Assembly: GCF_013407765.1 (NCBI RefSeq)
Contig: NZ_JACBZD010000002.1
Coordinates: 444,001-508,000, forward strand
Origin: Allostreptomyces psammosilenae
GTDB taxonomy: Bacteria; Actinomycetota; Actinomycetes; Streptomycetales; Streptomycetaceae
Reading direction: 5' to 3'
DNA: 64,000 bases
The first letter of the stretch is position 1, and each line of letters begins with the position of its first letter. The notes beneath the pieces were generated by a model. It was given only the letters and a program-made list of their open reading frames with translations, searched no databases and was not told where the DNA came from. Positions 15,124 through 28,640 of this stretch are shown here, piece after piece. The position numbers were made by a program, and so were the translations under genes.

Positions 15124-16119
15124 ATGTCCGCCGACCGCGCCACCGCCCCGGCCCCCGGCACCGCCTCGGTCACCGTCCGCGCCCCGGCCAAGGTGAACGT
15201 GCAGCTGGCCGTGGGCGGCCGGCGGGCCGACGGCTTCCACGCGCTGGCCACCGTCTTCCACGCCGTGTCGCTGTACGACGAGGTCACCGCCAGCACGCTG
15301 CCCGCCTCCGCGAGCGGTGAGCAGGGGACGGTGCGGATCACCGTCTCGGGCGCCGACGCCGCCCAGGTGCCGACCGACGGCGACAACCTCGCCGCCCGCG
15401 CCGCCACGCTGCTCGCCCGGCGGGCGGGCGTGCCGGGGGCCGTGCACCTGCACATCGCCAAGGACATCCCGGTGGCCGGCGGCATGGCCGGCGGCAGCGC
15501 CGACGCCGCCGCCGCGCTGCTGGCCTGCGACCGGCTCTGGGGCCTGGACACGCCGCGCGCCACCCTGCTGGAACTCGCCGCCGAGCTGGGCAGCGACGTG
15601 CCGTTCAGCCTGGTCGGCGGCACCGCGCTGGGCACCGGCCGGGGTGAGCGGCTGACACCGGTGGAGGTGGGCGGGACGCTGCACTGGGTGTTCGCGGTGG
15701 CCGACGGCGGCCTGTCCACCCCGGCCGTCTACGCCGAGTGCGACCGGCTGCGCCGCACCGACGGCGGAGGGGACGGCGAGGCCGACGTGCCCGCCCCCGA
15801 GGCCGCCCCCGAACTGCTCGCCGCGCTGCGCGCCGGGGACGCGAAGGCCGTCGGCGCCGCCCTGGCCAACGACCTCCAGCCGGCCGCGCTCTCGCTGCGC
15901 CCGGCGCTGGCCGCCACGCTGCGCGCCGGCCGGGAGGCCGGCGCCCTGGGCGCGCTGGTCTCCGGATCCGGCCCCACCTGCGCCTTCCTGGCCGAGGACG
16001 CCGAGGCGGCCGGCCGGCTGGCGACCGCGCTGGAGGCCTCCGGCACCTGCCGCGCCGCCCGCACGGCCACCGGCGAGGTGCCCGGCGCGGTGCTGCTGGC
16101 CGCGGCTGACTCGCCCTGA
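15124..16119 (+). CDS. ispE: 4-diphosphocytidyl-2-C-methyl-D-erythritol kinase
   Basis: 331 residues from ATG 15124 with GGAG about 10 bases upstream. A GHMP kinase that phosphorylates CDP-ME in the MEP isoprenoid pathway. Landmarks: APAKVNVQLAVGGRRADGFHALATVFHAVSLYD at the N-terminus, the GHMP phosphate loop PVAGGMAGGSADAAAALLA in the middle, GSDVPFSLVGGTALGTGRGE with the catalytic aspartate, and GALVSGSGPTCAFL near the C-terminus. It follows rsmA by 96 bases, the common order in Streptomyces. Confidence 0.96.
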   Translation: MSADRATAPAPGTASVTVRAPAKVNVQLAVGGRRADGFHALATVFHAVSLYDEVTASTLPASASGEQGTVRITVSGADAAQVPTDGDNLAARAATLLARRAGVPGAVHLHIAKDIPVAGGMAGGSADAAAALLACDRLWGLDTPRATLLELAAELGSDVPFSLVGGTALGTGRGERLTPVEVGGTLHWVFAVADGGLSTPAVYAECDRLRRTDGGGDGEADVPAPEAAPELLAALRAGDAKAVGAALANDLQPAALSLRPALAATLRAGREAGALGALVSGSGPTCAFLAEDAEAAGRLATALEASGTCRAARTATGEVPGAVLLAAADSP

Positions 16120-16508
16120 CAGGCCTGACCAGCCGTGACAGGCTGACCAGCTTTGATAGTGCTACCCGGTAGGGGTAATCCGCCGGGTACCCCCAATTTC
16201 AAGATTGGCATGGGGGTGAGTGGGTGTGGCAGTCCCCTTTACGGGCTGTGGACAACTCCGGGGTGCGGGCTGCGGATGACCCGGGGGCGCGGGCTGTGGA
16301 CGTCCGGCTGGACGCGCGGGTGGGCAGGCACGCGGGCAGGCAGGCGCGGCAACAGGGATGCGGTTGCTCATCTGCGCTGCGGAGGCTTGGTGACTGGTTC
16401 GGTCGGGGGGCTGAGTCGGCTGTGGGGCGGGCCGGCGGTTGGTTCAGTCGGGAGTGTGGCGCCGGGGAGTCGTGGAAGCGGTGGCGGGGGAAGCCGCCTT
16501 TGAAATAC
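16120..16508 (+). other. ispE-SIP intergenic region
   Basis: About 390 bases with less GC than neighbours and no coding pattern. It starts with two imperfect tandem copies of an 18-base TGACAGG-CTGACCAGC unit (16117-16152). A 6-bp stem GGGGTA/TACCCC (16172-16193) overlaps a competing ACCCGG/CCGGGT pairing and could be an ispE terminator. A TGTGGACAA (16247-16255) is the reverse complement of the actinomycete DnaA-box consensus TTGTCCACA. Confidence 0.4.
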
Positions 16509-21603: not shown

Positions 21604-23508
21604 ATGGCCGCCAATCTTGTCAACCTTGAAGCCGTCGGGAAGTCCTACGTCACCCGCACCCTGCTGGACGGCGTGTCCCTCGGCGTGTCGGAGGGCGACC
21701 GGATCGGCGTCGTCGGCCGCAACGGCGACGGCAAGTCCACCCTGGTGAAGATCCTGGCCAAGGCCGAGCCGGCGGACTCCGGCCGGGTCACCCACTCCGG
21801 CGGGCTGCGGCTCGGCATGCTCGCCCAGGGCGACGCCCTCGACCCGGCCGCCACCATCCGCGCCGAGGTCCTCGGCGACCTCGCCGACCACGAGTGGGCC
21901 GGCGACGCCAAGGTCCGCGACGTGCTCACCGGCCTGTTCGGCGGCCTGGACCTGCCCGGCTTCCCGCAGGGCCTGGACACCGTGATCGGCCCGCTCTCCG
22001 GTGGCGAGCGCCGCCGGATCGCCCTGGCCAAGCTGCTCATCGCCGAGCAGGACCTGATCGTCCTGGACGAGCCCACCAACCACCTCGACGTCGAGGGCAT
22101 CACCTGGCTCGCCCGCCACCTCAAGGGCCGTCGCAGCGCGCTTGTCGTGGTCACCCACGACCGGTGGTTCCTGGACGAGGTCTGCACCCGCATGTGGGAC
22201 GTGCAGCGCGGTCGCGTCCACGAGTACGAGGGCGGCTACTCCGCCTACGTCCTCGCCCGCGCCGAGCGCGAACGCATCGCCGCCACCGAGGAGAGCAAGC
22301 GGCAGAACCTGATCCGCAAGGAGCTGGCGTGGCTGCGCCGAGGCGCGCCGGCCCGCACCTCCAAGCCGCGGTTCCGCATCGACGCCGCCAACCAGCTGAT
22401 CGCCGACGAGCCGCCGCCGCGCGACTCCTCGGAGCTGATGCGCTTCGCCGGAGCCCGGCTCGGCAAGACCGTCTTCGACCTCGAGGACGTGCGCGTGGAG
22501 GCGGGGAGCAAGGTCCTGCTCGACCACCTGACCTGGCAACTCGGCCCCGGCGACCGGATCGGCCTGGTCGGGGTGAACGGCGCCGGCAAGACCTCGTTGC
22601 TGCGCGCCATGGTGGCGGCGGCGGAGCGGGAGGAGCAGCCGGCGGGCGGTCGCGTCGTGGTGGGCAAGACGGTGCGACTGGCCTACCTGTCGCAGGAGGT
22701 CGCCGAGCTGGACCCGACCTGGCGGGTGCTGGAGTCGGTGGAACGCGTGCGCCAGCGGGTGGACCTCGGCAAGGGCCGGGAGATGACCGCGAGCCAGCTG
22801 TGCGAGCGCTTCGGTTTCACCGGCGAGAAGCAGTGGACGCCCGTCGGCGACCTGTCGGGTGGCGAGCGGCGGCGGCTGCAGCTGCTGCGGCTGCTGATGA
22901 ACGAGCCGAACGTGCTGTTCCTGGACGAGCCCACCAACGACCTCGACATCGAGACCCTGACCCAGCTGGAGGACCTGCTGGACGGCTGGCCGGGCTCGAT
23001 GGTGGTGATCTCCCACGACCGCTACTTCATCGAGCGCACCACCGACCGGGTGCTGGCGCTGCTCGGCGACCGGACGCTGCGGATGCTGCCCGGTGGCATC
23101 GACGAGTACCTGGAGCGCCGGAGCCGCGCGGTGGCCGGAACCGGCCGTCCGGCGGCGGGCGGGGGAGCCGGGGCGGCGAGCGCCGCTGGGGCCGCTGGTG
23201 GTTCTGGGGCCGCAGGGGCCTCCGGGGCTGGTGGGGGCTCTGGTGCTTCTGGGGTCTCCGGGGACGGGGGCGTGGCCGCGCCGCCGCGCCGGAGCGCGGG
23301 GGAGATCCGGGCCGCGCAGAAGGAGCTGCAGCGCATCGAGCGCCGGCTGGACCGGATCAGCGAGGAGGAGGCGCGGCTGCACGGCGACCTGGCCACGTAC
23401 GCCACCGACTTCGAGAAGGTCGCCAAGCTGGACGCCGAGCTGCGGACCCTCGGGGACGAGCGGTCGGAGCTGGAGTCGCGCTGGCTGGAGCTGGCCGAGG
23501 ACGTCTGA
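21604..23508 (+). CDS. ABC-F family ATPase (Uup-like)
   Basis: 634 residues from ATG 21604 with GGAG 6-9 bases upstream. It has two ABC domains without membrane segments: Walker A GRNGDGKST and GVNGAGKTS, signature LSGGERRR twice, Walker B LIVLDEPTNHLDVEG and VLFLDEPTNDLDIET, separated by the charged inter-domain linker. A Gly/Ala/Ser-rich spacer at about 520-560 precedes a C-terminal coiled coil (ELQRIERRLDRISEEEARL...LDAELRTLGDERSELESRW), the Uup/EttA-like tail. ABC-F proteins act on the ribosome or nucleic acid; some confer antibiotic protection. No drug link is visible here. Confidence 0.93.
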   Translation: MAANLVNLEAVGKSYVTRTLLDGVSLGVSEGDRIGVVGRNGDGKSTLVKILAKAEPADSGRVTHSGGLRLGMLAQGDALDPAATIRAEVLGDLADHEWAGDAKVRDVLTGLFGGLDLPGFPQGLDTVIGPLSGGERRRIALAKLLIAEQDLIVLDEPTNHLDVEGITWLARHLKGRRSALVVVTHDRWFLDEVCTRMWDVQRGRVHEYEGGYSAYVLARAERERIAATEESKRQNLIRKELAWLRRGAPARTSKPRFRIDAANQLIADEPPPRDSSELMRFAGARLGKTVFDLEDVRVEAGSKVLLDHLTWQLGPGDRIGLVGVNGAGKTSLLRAMVAAAEREEQPAGGRVVVGKTVRLAYLSQEVAELDPTWRVLESVERVRQRVDLGKGREMTASQLCERFGFTGEKQWTPVGDLSGGERRRLQLLRLLMNEPNVLFLDEPTNDLDIETLTQLEDLLDGWPGSMVVISHDRYFIERTTDRVLALLGDRTLRMLPGGIDEYLERRSRAVAGTGRPAAGGGAGAASAAGAAGGSGAAGASGAGGGSGASGVSGDGGVAAPPRRSAGEIRAAQKELQRIERRLDRISEEEARLHGDLATYATDFEKVAKLDAELRTLGDERSELESRWLELAEDV

Positions 23509-23603
23509 GAACGGGCCGCTCTGCCTGCGGGGCTGCCGGGTTCGGGCCTGTCGGCGGGTTCGGGCCTGTCGGCGGGAGGCCGGGCTGCTGGGTGGTGGGC
23601 CGC

Positions 23604-23703
23604 CTCGGGGTTTCGGCTCCCGGGCTGTCTCGGGGTTTCGGCTCCCGGGCTGCCTCGGGGTTTCGGCTCCCGGGCTGTCTCGGGGCTTGCCGCCGGGCCT
23701 GCT
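23604..23703 (+). repeat. 25-bp tandem repeat, three full copies plus a degenerate fourth
   Basis: Units start at 23604, 23629 and 23654 and begin CTCGGGGTTTCGGCTCC. The fourth (23679) has diverged. Two copies of an 18-base GGGTTCGGGCCTGTCGGC unit lie just before them. All are in the noncoding 762-bp gap after the ABC-F gene. Confidence 0.9.
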
Positions 23704-23877
23704 GCGCGGGTGCTGGCCGGCTTGCCTCGGGGGTTCGGCCGCGGGGTGCCTTGGGACAGGCCGGCGCCGGGCTTGCCGCGCTGCTGGTGGCGGGGCTGCC
23801 ATGGGGTTGTCTCCGGGCACGTCGCGGGGCTGGTGGCGGGGCTGCCTTGGGTTGTCTCCCGGCTCGTCGCGGGGCTG

Positions 23878-23925
23878 CTGGCGGGCTGGGCCGGCGGTTG
23901 GCCCACCGCCGGCCCAGCCCGCCAG
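23878..23925 (+). terminator. 21-bp perfect inverted repeat
   Basis: Arms 23878-23898 and 23905-23925 are exact reverse complements around a 6-base loop. This is one of the longest stems in the window. It could terminate transcription leaving the ABC-F gene. It directly abuts the first DnaA-box-like repeat. Confidence 0.7.
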
Positions 23926-24200
23926 CTGTCCACAGGCGGCCGAAGCCTCCTTGCGCTGGCTCCTCTCCGTCCGCTACCTCTGGGAGAAAAGGGGCGGTGG
24001 GTTTTCCACAGGCGGGTGGACCCCTCTTGTGCCAGCCCTTCTGCCTCCGCTACCCCTGGGTGAAAAAGGGGTGGCGGGGTTATCCACAGGCGGGCGGAAC
24101 CCCCTTGCGCCGTCCTCCTGACCTCCGATACCCCTGGGGCAAAAGGGGCGGCGAGGTTTTCCACAGGTTCCGCGACCCCCCTTGCGGTGGCGACCTGGGG
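23926..24200 (+). repeat. About 77-bp repeats, each starting with a DnaA-box-like TCCACAGG
   Basis: Three units plus a partial fourth start at 23926, 24002, 24080 and 24157. They begin CTGTCCACA, TTTTCCACA, TTATCCACA and TTTTCCACA, the third being the classic DnaA box. Each is followed by GG, a CCCTTG-type element and, in the first three units, a TACCCCTGGG-N-AAAAGGGG stem-loop. The repeats end just before the PspC gene. No open frame across them has normal codon use. Confidence 0.85.
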
Positions 24201-24270
24201 CGGGGTAGGGGAAGCGTCAGGGTGATTCCAGGGCCCTTCCCCATGGGATCGGAAGACCATACGGACAACC

Positions 24271-26220
24271 ATGGGAAACATGAGCTACGACGTCCCTGGA
24301 GGCCGCGGCCCGCGGATGGACGCCCCGGGTGACGGCACGGGCGCCCCGGCGCCCGGCGTCGCCTCGGCGCCCGGCGAACCAGGCGGACGGCAGGGGCCAG
24401 GAGGCCCCGGCGGCCCGCACGGCTCCCAGGGCCACCACAGCCCCCCGGGCCCGCACGACCCGCACGGCCCCGGCGGCCCCCAGGCCGCCCCCCGGGGCGG
24501 CGCGGGCGCGCCCGGCCCGGCCGGGGGCGGACGGCCGCCGTTGCGGCGGTACACCCGTGACCAACTGTTGGGCGGCGTCTGCGCGGGCCTCGGCCGCCAC
24601 CTCGGCATCGATCCCGTGGTCTTCCGCGTCGTGGTCACCGTGCTGGCCATCTTCGGCGGCATCGGCCTGCTCGCCTACGGCCTGTGCTGGCTGTTCGTCG
24701 CCCCCGAGGACGGCGGGCCGACGGAGGCGCGCCGGCTGGCCTCCGGCCAGCTGGACCGGGACTCCGGCCTGGCCCTGGCCGCCACCGCCCTGGGGGCCGC
24801 CGCCGTCTCCGTGCAGTCCGGCAGCGGCGGACACGTGCCGCTGGTGCTGGCGCTGGTCGCCGGCTCCCTCGGCTACGCCCTGTGGCGCAATCCCAAGCTG
24901 CGGCAAGGTCTGATGGGCTGGGTCCCGCCGGAGCCGAAGGCCCCGCCGTCGAAGGTGGACGCGCCGGAGTCGTGGTGGAAGAAAGGGCTGAGCGCCCACA
25001 CGGGCGCGGAGGAGCCCCCCGCCGGCCAGGCCCCCGGACAGCCCGGACAGCCCGGACAACCCGAACAACCCGGCCAGGCCGGGCAACCGGAACGCCTCGG
25101 ACAGGCCGCCCCGTGGTCGGACGGAGCTCCGTCGGCCACGGGGCAGCACGCCGTCGCGTCCGGGGCGACGGCCGTCGGCGCCACCGCCGCTCCCCGGCTC
25201 GGCGCGACGGCCGCCGCGGGCCCGGAGCCGGGCACGGGCACGGGCACCGCGACCGGTCGGCCCCTGGGCGTGTACGACCCCGACTACACCGGCCCGGTCG
25301 ACCCGGCCGAGCTGGGCCGGGGCGGCGCACCGGTCGGCACCGCTGGTCGCCCGACCGCTAGCGCGACCTCGACTACGACCCCGCCACCGCCGACCACCGG
25401 GCCGGCGCCGGACGGCACCTGGGACCTGGCGCGGCTGCGCCCGGGACCGGGCCAGCCGGGCCAGCCGACCGGAAAGCCGGGCCAGCCGCCGGGTTCCGGT
25501 CCCTGGGGCGGCGCCGACCCCTGGGGCGGCGGGGCCGGCCCCGGTCGCGGGGGCGTGCCCCCGTACCAGCGGGAGCGGTCCCTGCTGGGGGTGGCCACGC
25601 TCTGCCTGGCGGTCGCCGTGGGCGGCGTCGGCTACGCCGTCGCGCAGGCCGCGGCGGCCACCGACACCGCGATCACGGTCGGCCTCGCCGCCGCGCTGGT
25701 GGTGCTCGGCGTCGGGCTCGTGGTGGGCAGCCGGTACGGCAGCGCCCGCGGGCTCTCCGGGCCGGCCGTGCTGCTCACCGGCGCGCTGCTGCTCGCCGAA
25801 CCGGTGGGCGTCGTCGCCGACCACGGGGTCGGCAGCCGCGAGTGGGCGCCGCCGAACGCGGCCGCGGTCGACCCGCAGTACCGGCACGGCATCGGCACGC
25901 TGGACGTCGATCTCAGCGAGGTGCGGCCGCGGGACGGCGCACTGCGGGTGGACGCCCGCCTGGACGTGGGCGTGCTGACGGTGACCGTCCCGGAGAACGT
26001 GCGGGTCGTGGTGGACAGCAGCTACCGGCTGGGCGGTTCCTCGATCGGGGGACGGTCCACGGACAGCGGCGACGGGGAGGCCTTCGTCGCGGGCACGGTG
26101 GTGGAGAGCCACCGGACGGAACTGCTGCCCGAGGACCCGTCCGCGGCCGCGGGCGGGACCATCGAACTCGACCTGAGCGTCGGGATGGGAATGATCGAGG
26201 TGCACCGTGCGCCGGCATGA
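24271..26220 (+). CDS. PspC-domain membrane protein with LiaF-like C-terminus
   Basis: 649 residues. Residues 1-90 are Pro/Gly/His-rich. The PspC domain is at about 92-150 (RYTRDQLLGGVCAGLGRHLGIDPVVFRVVVTVLAIFGGIGLLAYGLCWLFV) with one transmembrane helix. Two more hydrophobic helices follow, then a long Pro/Gly/Gln linker (about 250-430), further helices around 435-520, and a soluble tail (IGTLDVDLSEVRPRDGALRVDARLDVGVLTVTVPENVRVVV...) like the beta-helical LiaF/toastrack domain. It likely senses envelope damage and controls the downstream kinase. It overlaps the next gene by 14 bases. The ATG lacks a strong ribosome binding site. Confidence 0.85.
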   Translation: MGNMSYDVPGGRGPRMDAPGDGTGAPAPGVASAPGEPGGRQGPGGPGGPHGSQGHHSPPGPHDPHGPGGPQAAPRGGAGAPGPAGGGRPPLRRYTRDQLLGGVCAGLGRHLGIDPVVFRVVVTVLAIFGGIGLLAYGLCWLFVAPEDGGPTEARRLASGQLDRDSGLALAATALGAAAVSVQSGSGGHVPLVLALVAGSLGYALWRNPKLRQGLMGWVPPEPKAPPSKVDAPESWWKKGLSAHTGAEEPPAGQAPGQPGQPGQPEQPGQAGQPERLGQAAPWSDGAPSATGQHAVASGATAVGATAAPRLGATAAAGPEPGTGTGTATGRPLGVYDPDYTGPVDPAELGRGGAPVGTAGRPTASATSTTTPPPPTTGPAPDGTWDLARLRPGPGQPGQPTGKPGQPPGSGPWGGADPWGGGAGPGRGGVPPYQRERSLLGVATLCLAVAVGGVGYAVAQAAAATDTAITVGLAAALVVLGVGLVVGSRYGSARGLSGPAVLLTGALLLAEPVGVVADHGVGSREWAPPNAAAVDPQYRHGIGTLDVDLSEVRPRDGALRVDARLDVGVLTVTVPENVRVVVDSSYRLGGSSIGGRSTDSGDGEAFVAGTVVESHRTELLPEDPSAAAGGTIELDLSVGMGMIEVHRAPA

Positions 26221-26437
26221 CATCGAGCCCTTCGCCCTGCTGAGCGGCGTGTTCTTCGTGCTGTTCGGAGTCGCCTACCTGCTGGGGCTGGCCAGCGGCG
26301 TGGACATGGAGTGGCGGTTCTGGCTGCCGGTGGGCGTGGTGTGGCTGGCCCTCGCCGGCTGTGTGGGCGCCGTCACCGGCATGGTGCGGGCCGCGCGGCG
26401 CAGACCGGGCCGCGGGGGGAAGCGGGGGACGGCGTGA
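26207..26437 (+). CDS. Small two-helix membrane protein
   Basis: 76 residues, GTG 26207 with GAGGTG upstream inside the end of the PspC gene. Two transmembrane helices (FALLSGVFFVLFGVAYLLGLA and FWLPVGVVWLALAGCVGAVTGMV) and a basic tail. It is coupled to the PspC gene by a 14-base overlap and to the kinase by a GTGA overlap, so it is part of the same signalling unit, perhaps as an accessory to the sensor. I do not recognise a family. Confidence 0.8.
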   Translation: MRRHDIEPFALLSGVFFVLFGVAYLLGLASGVDMEWRFWLPVGVVWLALAGCVGAVTGMVRAARRRPGRGGKRGTA

Positions 26438-27810
26438 CACAGGACGGCAAGCCAGGCGGCGCCGGCGCCTTCGGGGGCGTGGGCGCCGCCGGCATGGGTG
26501 CCACCGGCAAGGGCAGCACCGGCACGGCCCCCGGCACCGGCACGGGCACGGCCTCCGGCACGGGCGCGGCCTCCGGGCCGCCGGCGGACGGCGCGGCCTC
26601 CGGCACGCCGCGGGACGGCGAGCCGCGCCGGCTCTACCGCAGCTCGCACGGGCGGATCGTGGGCGGCGTGGCCCAGGGACTCGCCGCCCATCTCGGCCTG
26701 CCGGTGGTGTGGGTGCGGGTGACCTTCGCCATCCTCGGCATGTTCAACGGCATGGGCCTGCTGCTCTACGCGGCCTTCTGGGCGTTCGTGCCGCTCGGCA
26801 TGGACGACGAGACGGTCGGCCGGGACGCCGCCGACCGGGAGGGTCCGCCCCGCCGGCACCTGCTGCTCGGCGGGATGCTGCTGCTGGTCGTGCTCACGGT
26901 GGTGACCCGGTTCGCGTTCGGCCCGTCCTACCTGCTGCCGCTGGTGATCGCCGCGGTGGGCGTGATCATCGTGTGGCGGCAGGCGGACGACGTCCGCCGC
27001 GACCGCTGGATGCACATCGGCGCCACGCACGCCGGGGTCCGGGCCATCCGCTCGGTGCTCGGGGCCGGGCTGCTGCTCGCCGGCGTGATCGCGTTCCTGG
27101 TCATGCAGGGCAGCGGACGCTACCTGGTGCAGGTGCTGGAGGCGTCGCTCGCCATCGTCGTCGGCCTGCTGCTGCTCGCCGGCCCCTACCTGGCCCGGTT
27201 CGCGCAGGAACTCGGCGCGGAGCGCCGGGCCCGCATCCGCGCCCAGGAGCGCGCCGAGGTCGCGGCGCACGTGCACGACTCGGTGCTGCACACCCTCACC
27301 CTGATCCAGCGCCACGCCGACGACCCGCGCGAGGTGCTGCGGCTGGCCCGCTCCCAGGAGCGCGAGCTGCGCGCCTGGCTGTACCGTCCGGACGGCGACA
27401 CCACCGCCGAGGAGGGCCCGAGCACGCTGGCGGAGGCCGTCCGCGCGGTCGCCGGCGAGGTGGAGGACGCCCACGGCGTGCAGATCGAGGTGGTGTGCGT
27501 CGGCGACTGCCCGCTGGACGAGCGGCTGGGCGCCCAGCTCCAGGCGGCGCGCGAGGCGATGGTGAACGCGGCCAAGTACGGTGGCAGCGAACCCGTCCAG
27601 GTGTACGCCGAGGTGGAGGAGCGCGAGGTGCTGATCTTCGTGCGCGACCGCGGCCCCGGCTTCGACCCGGACACGGTGCCGGAGGACCGGCTCGGCGTGC
27701 GCGAGTCGATCATCGGGCGGATGCGCCGCAACGGAGGCACCGCGCGGGTGCGCAGCACCCCGGGTGAGGGAACCGAGATCGAGCTGGAGATGGAGAGGGC
27801 GGTCGCCTGA
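26434..27810 (+). CDS. PspC-fused sensor histidine kinase (NarX/LiaS type)
   Basis: 458 residues from GTG 26434. Residues 1-65 are Gly/Thr/Ala repeats. A PspC domain is at about 67-122 (YRSSHGRIVGGVAQGLAAHLGLPVVWVRVTFAILGMFNGMGLLLYAAFWAFVPLG). Three further helices lie at about 143-158, 165-181 and 205-225, with another at about 233-252. The HisKA_3 motif is AAHVHDSVLHTLTLI, with His281 as likely phospho-acceptor. The HATPase_c domain has REAMVNAAKYGG and VRDRGPGFDPD. The layout fits envelope-stress kinases of the Streptomyces PspC group. It overlaps the regulator gene by one base. Confidence 0.92.
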   Translation: MTQDGKPGGAGAFGGVGAAGMGATGKGSTGTAPGTGTGTASGTGAASGPPADGAASGTPRDGEPRRLYRSSHGRIVGGVAQGLAAHLGLPVVWVRVTFAILGMFNGMGLLLYAAFWAFVPLGMDDETVGRDAADREGPPRRHLLLGGMLLLVVLTVVTRFAFGPSYLLPLVIAAVGVIIVWRQADDVRRDRWMHIGATHAGVRAIRSVLGAGLLLAGVIAFLVMQGSGRYLVQVLEASLAIVVGLLLLAGPYLARFAQELGAERRARIRAQERAEVAAHVHDSVLHTLTLIQRHADDPREVLRLARSQERELRAWLYRPDGDTTAEEGPSTLAEAVRAVAGEVEDAHGVQIEVVCVGDCPLDERLGAQLQAAREAMVNAAKYGGSEPVQVYAEVEEREVLIFVRDRGPGFDPDTVPEDRLGVRESIIGRMRRNGGTARVRSTPGEGTEIELEMERAVA

Positions 27811-28640
27811 TGGACCACAACACCTCTGGGCGGCCGGCCCAGTCGCCCCGGCCGGGAGCGGCCGGCGAGCCCGCCGGGGACGCCGGCGCCCGCCGGCGGG
27901 TCCGGGTGGTGCTGGTCGACGACCACCGGATGTTCCGCACCGGGGTGCGTGCCGAGATCGGGGAGACCGCGCGCACCGGGGTGGACGTGGTCGGCGAGGC
28001 CGCGGACGTGGAGCAGGCGGTGGCCGTGGTGACCGGCACCCGGCCGGACGTGGTGCTGCTCGACGTGCACCTGCCGGGCGGCGGCGGGGTGGAGGTGCTG
28101 CGCCGCTGCGCCCCGCTGATGGGCGGCCCCTCCGCGGGCCCCGCGGGCCACGGCCTGCCGGGCGGCCCGGGAGCGGCCGGTGCCGGCGGTGCCGGCGGTG
28201 GTGAGGGAGCGGTCGAGGAGACGCCGGTGCGGTTCCTGGCGCTGTCGGTCTCCGACGCGGCGGAGGACGTCATCGGCGTGATCCGGGGCGGCGCGCGCGG
28301 CTACGTCACCAAGACCATCACCGGGCCGGCGCTGATCGACGCGATCTTCCGGGTGGCGGACGGCGACGCCGTCTTCTCGCCCCGGCTGGCCGGCTTCGTG
28401 CTGGACGCCTTCGCGGCGAGCGACACCCCGCCGGTCGACGAGGACCTCGACCGCCTCACCCAGCGGGAGCGCGAGGTGCTGCGGCTGATCGCCCGCGGCT
28501 ACGCCTACAAGGAGGTGGCCAAGCAGTTGTTCATCTCGGTGAAGACGGTGGAGAGCCACGTCTCGGCGGTGCTGCGCAAGCTCCAGCTCAGCAACCGCCA
28601 CGAGCTCACCCGCTGGGCCACCGCCCGCCGCCTGGTCTGA
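27810..28640 (+). CDS. NarL/LuxR-family response regulator with a glycine-rich insertion
   Basis: 276 residues. The receiver has D37/D38, phospho-acceptor Asp85 (VLLDVHLPG), Ser146 and Lys168. Between the alpha-3 region and beta-4 there is an about 35-residue Gly/Ala/Pro insertion (102-138), which is not part of the normal receiver fold and should loop out. The LuxR helix-turn-helix is at about 213-270 (LTQREREVLRLIARGYAYKEVAKQLFISVKTVESHVSAVLRKL). Partner of the PspC-kinase, translationally coupled to it. Confidence 0.93.
   Translation: MDHNTSGRPAQSPRPGAAGEPAGDAGARRRVRVVLVDDHRMFRTGVRAEIGETARTGVDVVGEAADVEQAVAVVTGTRPDVVLLDVHLPGGGGVEVLRRCAPLMGGPSAGPAGHGLPGGPGAAGAGGAGGGEGAVEETPVRFLALSVSDAAEDVIGVIRGGARGYVTKTITGPALIDAIFRVADGDAVFSPRLAGFVLDAFAASDTPPVDEDLDRLTQREREVLRLIARGYAYKEVAKQLFISVKTVESHVSAVLRKLQLSNRHELTRWATARRLV

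Follow-up and report, generated by a model that had tools for sequence, protein, structure and literature searches.

A dispersed 77-bp repeat with DnaA-box-like motifs and promoter-like geometry in Allostreptomyces psammosilenae

DnaA boxes outside the origin

Several strong DnaA boxes can lie together in noncoding DNA away from oriC, as at the E. coli datA locus, and a cluster of this kind has reportedly been found in Streptomyces. The tandem array considered here resembles these clusters in all of those respects, but datA-type clusters occupy one or a few defined loci, whereas the boxes described below number in the hundreds and are spread over dozens of loci. Moreover, each of them is embedded in a conserved cassette, either a 77-bp tandem unit or a single copy, with fixed promoter-like spacing.

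Promoters regulated by DnaA offer a second comparison. Elsewhere DnaA has an accepted role in transcription as a regulatory factor, and in Streptomyces it autoregulates dnaA (PMC8203912); the promoters under its control, including those of dnaA, nrdAB and gcrA (PMC8203912), share with the present units a DnaA box 5' of a promoter core. The differences are that a box-to--10 spacing of 28 or 38 bp is fixed at dozens of sites in relatives, and that the arrangement has here been amplified into repeats with an altered -10. MIRU, REP/BIME and MITE-type elements are likewise short, dispersed, partly tandem intergenic units in many copies; in contrast to them, no terminal inverted repeats were seen here in the aligned single-copy elements, and the conserved core has the geometry of a protein site plus a promoter.

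The array in the window

The window is a stretch of 64,000 nucleotides from A. psammosilenae (contig NZ_JACBZD010000002.1, positions 444,001 to 508,000). Between the stop codon of an ABC-F gene (23508) and the ATG of a PspC-protein gene (24271) a codon-based gene call finds no coding-like frame, in keeping with the noncoding gap proposed in the earlier note; long spurious ORFs overlap the gap. Four TCCACAGG motifs lie within it at 23929, 24005, 24083 and 24160, spaced by 76, 78 and 77 bp. The boxes read, in order, CTGTCCACA, TTTTCCACA, TTATCCACA and TTTTCCACA, with TTATCCACA the consensus, so that the coordinates confirm what had been noted of the four: a 76-78-base spacing, one consensus box and two copies of TTTTCCACA. 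Tandem Repeats Finder resolves 23929-24186 into 3.1-3.3 copies of a 77-78-bp unit and scores it at 253-255, the top of 99 rows for the window (the next scores 173). A CCCYCTTG element and CCCCT...AGGGG arms are repeated between the boxes, and in all four units the TTGnnn-to-TA spacer is exactly 18 bp and the box-to-TA distance exactly 38 bp. Recurrence of the unit across the genome puts the array well outside what chance would give. The features of the locus are as follows.

21604-23508, + strand: ABC-F-type ATPase gene, 5' of the array (Pfam ABC_tran, ABC_tran_Xtn, ABC_tran_CTD)
23926-24211, + strand: array of four modules, each a box plus a core, repeating every 76-78 bp (sequence, Tandem Repeats Finder; profile matches 23927-24196)
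23926-23934, + strand: DnaA-box-like CTGTCCACA, unit 1 (sequence)
23951-23956, + strand: -35-like TTGCGC, unit 1 (sequence, family pattern)
23975-23980, + strand: -10-like TACCTC, unit 1, 18 bp past TTGCGC and 38 bp past the box GG (sequence, family pattern)
23975-23994, + strand: degenerate dyad (CCTCT ... AGGGG), units 1/2 (sequence)
24002-24010, + strand: DnaA-box-like TTTTCCACA, unit 2 (sequence)
24027-24032, + strand: -35-like TTGTGC, unit 2 (sequence, family pattern)
24051-24056, + strand: -10-like TACCCC, unit 2, 18-bp spacer, 38 bp past the box (sequence, family pattern)
24051-24071, + strand: CCCCT...AGGGG dyad, units 2/3 (sequence, column conservation)
24080-24088, + strand: consensus DnaA box TTATCCACA, unit 3 (sequence)
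24105-24110, + strand: -35-like TTGCGC, unit 3 (sequence, family pattern)
24129-24134, + strand: -10-like TACCCC, unit 3, 18-bp spacer, 38 bp past the box (sequence, family pattern)
24129-24148, + strand: CCCCT...AGGGG dyad, units 3/4 (sequence)
24157-24165, + strand: DnaA-box-like TTTTCCACA, unit 4 (sequence)
24182-24187, + strand: -35-like TTGCGG, unit 4 (sequence)
24206-24211, + strand: -10-like TAGGGG, unit 4, 18-bp spacer, 38 bp past the box, 59 bp 5' of the PspC-protein ATG (sequence)
24271-26220, + strand: PspC-domain membrane protein gene, 3' of the array, start codon uncertain (Pfam PspC)

The flanking element and the arms recur as the earlier note had claimed. The accompanying AAAAGGGG "stem-loop" did not survive as such: it is a short CCCCT/AGGGG dyad, and the whole array folds as RNA no better than its shuffles (z -0.14). 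The arms barely vary and are hence uninformative for base-pair covariation, and a mutual-information scan gave no stem pattern. An RNA element was rejected on the folding result and on Rfam, which returned only chance matches, most of them between microRNA families and the palindrome at 23872-23931.

That palindrome, a near-perfect and loopless 60 bp with 30-nt arms that are 90% complementary, directly abuts unit 1 and is possibly a terminator 3' of the ABC-F gene. The same gap holds two more tandem arrays at 23597-23885, with a 25-bp unit (3.6 copies, 93%) and a 45-bp unit (2.6 copies, 86%), both unrelated to the 77-bp unit. Elsewhere in the window, at 16242-16301, a 24-bp repeat carries CTGTGGACAAC, DnaA-box-like on the minus strand, 3' of a gene ending near 16119. 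Downstream of the array, 24271-28640 encodes a PspC protein, a PspC-histidine kinase and a LuxR-type regulator in tandem; the two PspC genes are divergent in most relatives.

A repeat family across the genome

The idea of a special local DnaA-box cluster fails at the level of the genome. The pattern TTNTCCACAGG occurs at 269 sites in the home genome, against 4 for the reversed pattern, and BLASTN with the window array finds 40 places. Among 149 relatives from 16 other genera of the family (the home genome being the single genome of its own genus in the set) there are 12-80 TTNTCCACAGG sites per genome, and fewer still in most genomes of the class. The family comprises tandem 77-bp arrays (type A) and mostly single copies (types B-D) at dozens of loci, and a profile search finds longer arrays than that of the window, with 6 units, for example, at both 4956 kb and 1821 kb of contig 1 (C1:4956k and C1:1821k). 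Arrays mostly start with the box and stop after CTTGCGC. By a home-made gene caller, the examined sites are intergenic in all but one case, divergent gaps are under-represented and convergent gaps frequent among those with sites, and the orientation of elements relative to neighbouring genes is roughly even; the copies are thus not positioned for driving genes.

Units are more alike within arrays (identity 0.77) than between them (0.66), as expected of slippage or unequal exchange, and the proposal that they arose by duplication is thereby upheld. A segmental duplication shared with the closest array (C1:4956k) was rejected, since hardly any similarity extends beyond the repeats. In the sampled parts of contig 1, which include the chromosome's far ends only in part and are partly motif-selected, site density is 84/Mb at 2.5-3.0 Mb, near oriC, versus 23/Mb at 0-2.5 Mb; the higher density could instead mark an old core region. 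Replication-strand polarity of the KOPS or Chi kind was also rejected, none being detected (Fisher p 0.26).

Full-length units were found in none of 100 family genomes, where the few matches span roughly 20-35 bases surrounding the box. Nor did plasmids, phages or viral contigs yield a full unit, and a phage or plasmid origin was rejected on that ground. A GTDB pattern scan, the home genome's records left out, gave 20 single chance matches scattered among unrelated bacteria with the rest of the unit missing, and the presence of the same unit in other species was likewise rejected. In 24 relatives the PspC locus lacks such a box and the gene order differs, so the array is not an ancestral feature of the PspC gene.

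Conserved elements and an altered -10

Type A units follow the pattern TTATCCACAGG-N9-CCCYCTTGCGC-N15-CTACCCCTGGnGACCAGGGGGG in tandem. Types B-D have the same box, but CCCYCTTGCGC is replaced by GGGGGCTGCGC and TACCCC by GATCCT or a similar sequence. An alignment of 95 full units shows little or no variation in TCCACA, CTTG and GGGG; TA is kept in 97-99%, and the stretches between these blocks are close to random. As a control for circularity, each block was masked out of the search model in turn; TCCACA was still present in 88/90 of the units recovered, CTTG in 49/50 and TA in 31/32 (38/39, 22/23 and 11/11, respectively, in contiguous DNA). Single copies of type B, about 170 bp long, show a AGGGGGTCCCCCC palindrome past the -10-like GATCCT (e.g. 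C2:157999, C2:398198, C1:3009753-3010061); their tail, CTGGCATGnCCCTGGCG, is conserved and may be what is left of a start codon.

Spacing is conserved along with the blocks. Though the period ranges between 73 and 78 bp, the TTGnnn-to-TA distance is 18 bp in 61/69 cases; box-to-TA is 37-38 bp in 85 of the 122 type A sites scanned, and 73/93 non-A copies have NANNNT at the same 37-38 bp. In Streptomyces lividans the -10 of promoters is TANNNT and most spacers are 18-19 nt long (PMC6742748). The window units place the box at a fixed helical position relative to the -10 element, but none has a complete TANNNT: they read TACCTC, TACCCC, TACCCC and TAGGGG. The final T (T6) is missing from all 93 type A units that keep TA, replaced by C in 82, G in 9 and A in 2. 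The other types retain A2 and T6 of the -10 and have the first T nearly always replaced. The copies that spread thus keep site and spacing, and in nearly all of them one of the three conserved bases of TANNNT is changed. With T6 lost, the promoter activity of type A may be nil, and its -35/-10 reading may describe a relic.

The same geometry in related genomes

The box-to--10 distance is not peculiar to the repeats. At 70 TTRTCCACAGG sites in relatives an ANNNT core is over-represented at the repeats' own offset, a level reached by 0 of 2000 shuffles. The pattern TTATCCACAGG-N(23-53)-TANNNT has matches in 130/150 genomes, and the reversed control few. In 72 non-redundant sequences among the matches listed, mostly from one related genus, the gap is 27-29 bp in 21 and 36-39 bp in 38, with 0 at 30-35 bp and 1 at 40-48 bp. 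The peaks at 28 and 38 bp differ by one helical turn, the separation to be expected if an activator has to bind on one face of the helix. An ATG follows shortly past the -10 at several of these sites read by eye, and some resemble parents of type A, e.g. TTATCCACAGGCTGAACACCCCCCTTCCCTCCGGGTCCTCCGCGGGCCTACCTT. A TTATCCACAGG box with TANNNT at 28 or 38 bp is accordingly put forward as a candidate class of DnaA-box promoter, independent of the repeats.

Conservation in relatives, which the earlier note had proposed to check, is found at these single sites, in the distance from box to -10, and not in full units. Its caveat that wide spread through unrelated intergenic sites would make the unit an ordinary repeat family held in part. 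The spread is there, but conservation covers the box, the -35- and -10-like elements and the spacing between them, and the box-to--10 distance is common to single sites in relatives, which argues against an ordinary junk repeat. What is unexpected in the finding is this fixed promoter-like geometry, together with its occurrence in relatives.

DnaA and oriC of the home genome

The home genome has a single intact dnaA, on the other contig (C1:2889 kb), and an oriC at C1:2887.5-2888.1 kb with the boxes TTGTCCACA, TTATCCACA, TTTTCCACA and TTCTCCACA. The TTNTCCACA boxes of oriC share the degeneracy of the repeat boxes, TT(A/G/T)TCCACA, in which the third base varies as A, G or T, and the four boxes of the window array match those of the host origin; the motifs are rightly likened to DnaA boxes. 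The array itself was rejected as an oriC, as it has no dnaA/dnaN neighbourhood and dnaA is on the other contig. Given an intact dnaA, boxes equal to those of oriC, and denser sites near oriC in the sampled parts, DnaA is the natural candidate binder.

Alternative explanations

On balance we lean towards a unit that originated as a DnaA-box promoter cassette, was amplified in this lineage with an altered -10, and would now mainly hold DnaA. Its dispersed, intergenic, lineage-specific and tandemly duplicated copies, in both orientations, would also fit a non-autonomous MITE-, REP- or MIRU-like repeat that carries a DnaA box and a promoter fragment by chance, is spread by some mobility system, and owes its conservation to the copying machinery with no host role. 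We think this rather unlikely, as consistent terminal inverted repeats were not seen in aligned single-copy elements, and conservation is limited to box, CTTG, TA and GGGG, which are the parts common to the promoters of relatives; the rest drifts. Target-site duplications were not evident in the alignments, where one genome in the genus leaves no empty sites for comparison. It is less probable again that the units are sites for another protein recognising TTATCCACAGG and CCCC(T)TGG motifs, with DnaA uninvolved, although the GG that follows the 9-mer (conserved at 94% and 83%) exceeds what DnaA needs, so that another protein could read the boxes, and the CCCCTTG-like blocks, three per unit, could be three half-sites (CCCYCTTG, ACCCCTGG and inverted CCAGGGGG). 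Against it, the degeneracy of TT(A/G/T)TCCACA is that of the home oriC boxes, and types B-D swap the CCCCTTG block for GGGGGCTG while the box stays.

Of a similarly low order is the prospect that the units are active tandem promoters, serving the gene downstream (here the one for the PspC protein) or, in convergent gaps, noncoding RNAs. TTGnnn-18-TA is present in all four units, the last of them 59 bp 5' of the ATG, and type B copies retain A2 and T6 of the -10; type A, however, lacks T6, orientation to downstream genes is about even, and the box is absent from the PspC loci of the 24 relatives. That this locus alone holds a datA-like cluster or one for auxiliary initiation, as four boxes in 240 bp might suggest, is very improbable, since many equal or longer arrays exist elsewhere, such as those of 6 units already mentioned.

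A proposed DnaA-box cassette and its significance

In the favoured reading, that of an amplified DnaA-box promoter cassette, each 77-bp unit would be a copy consisting of a DnaA box (TTNTCCACAGG), a -35-like CTTGCG, a spacer of 18 bp fixed in length and free in sequence, and a -10-like TAnCCC 38 bp past the box, with the CCCCT/AGGGG dyad covering the start region. The parent design would survive in the single sites of relatives, 5' of genes and with a complete TANNNT, where DnaA on a fixed helical face could activate transcription in the class-I manner. Copies of the cassette would, in this lineage, have reached dozens of intergenic loci and been duplicated in tandem by slippage or unequal exchange. 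DnaA would occupy the boxes, and repeats without the last T of the -10 would mostly hold DnaA, shared with oriC and DnaA-box promoters, and fire weakly at most. From the sequence, copy number, conservation and geometry of the units, and from the geometry common to relatives, we infer binding by DnaA, activation, titration and transcription. The likely role is DnaA binding or titration together with weak or disabled promoter activity. The control of initiator availability proposed in the earlier note is possible for the repeats as a family, and the cassettes may tie gene expression, or DnaA supply, to the replication cycle.

A broader view can be offered only tentatively. The Streptomycetaceae might possess a promoter class, so far undescribed, with a DnaA box 28 or 38 bp 5' of the -10 and DnaA as a broad activator; in this lineage it might have become a dispersed high-copy repeat, its -10 altered, whose copies act as DnaA-binding decoys and buffer free DnaA throughout the genome. 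A literature search that covered few subscription journals found no report of such a DnaA-box regulon or repeat. If this view is true, two questions become testable: whether DnaA regulates transcription broadly in actinomycetes, and by what means a bacterium manages a load of DnaA sites several-fold above that of its relatives. The box-to--10 spacing rule would, moreover, predict specific DnaA-dependent promoters in many sequenced Streptomycetaceae, open to a direct check in model Streptomyces.
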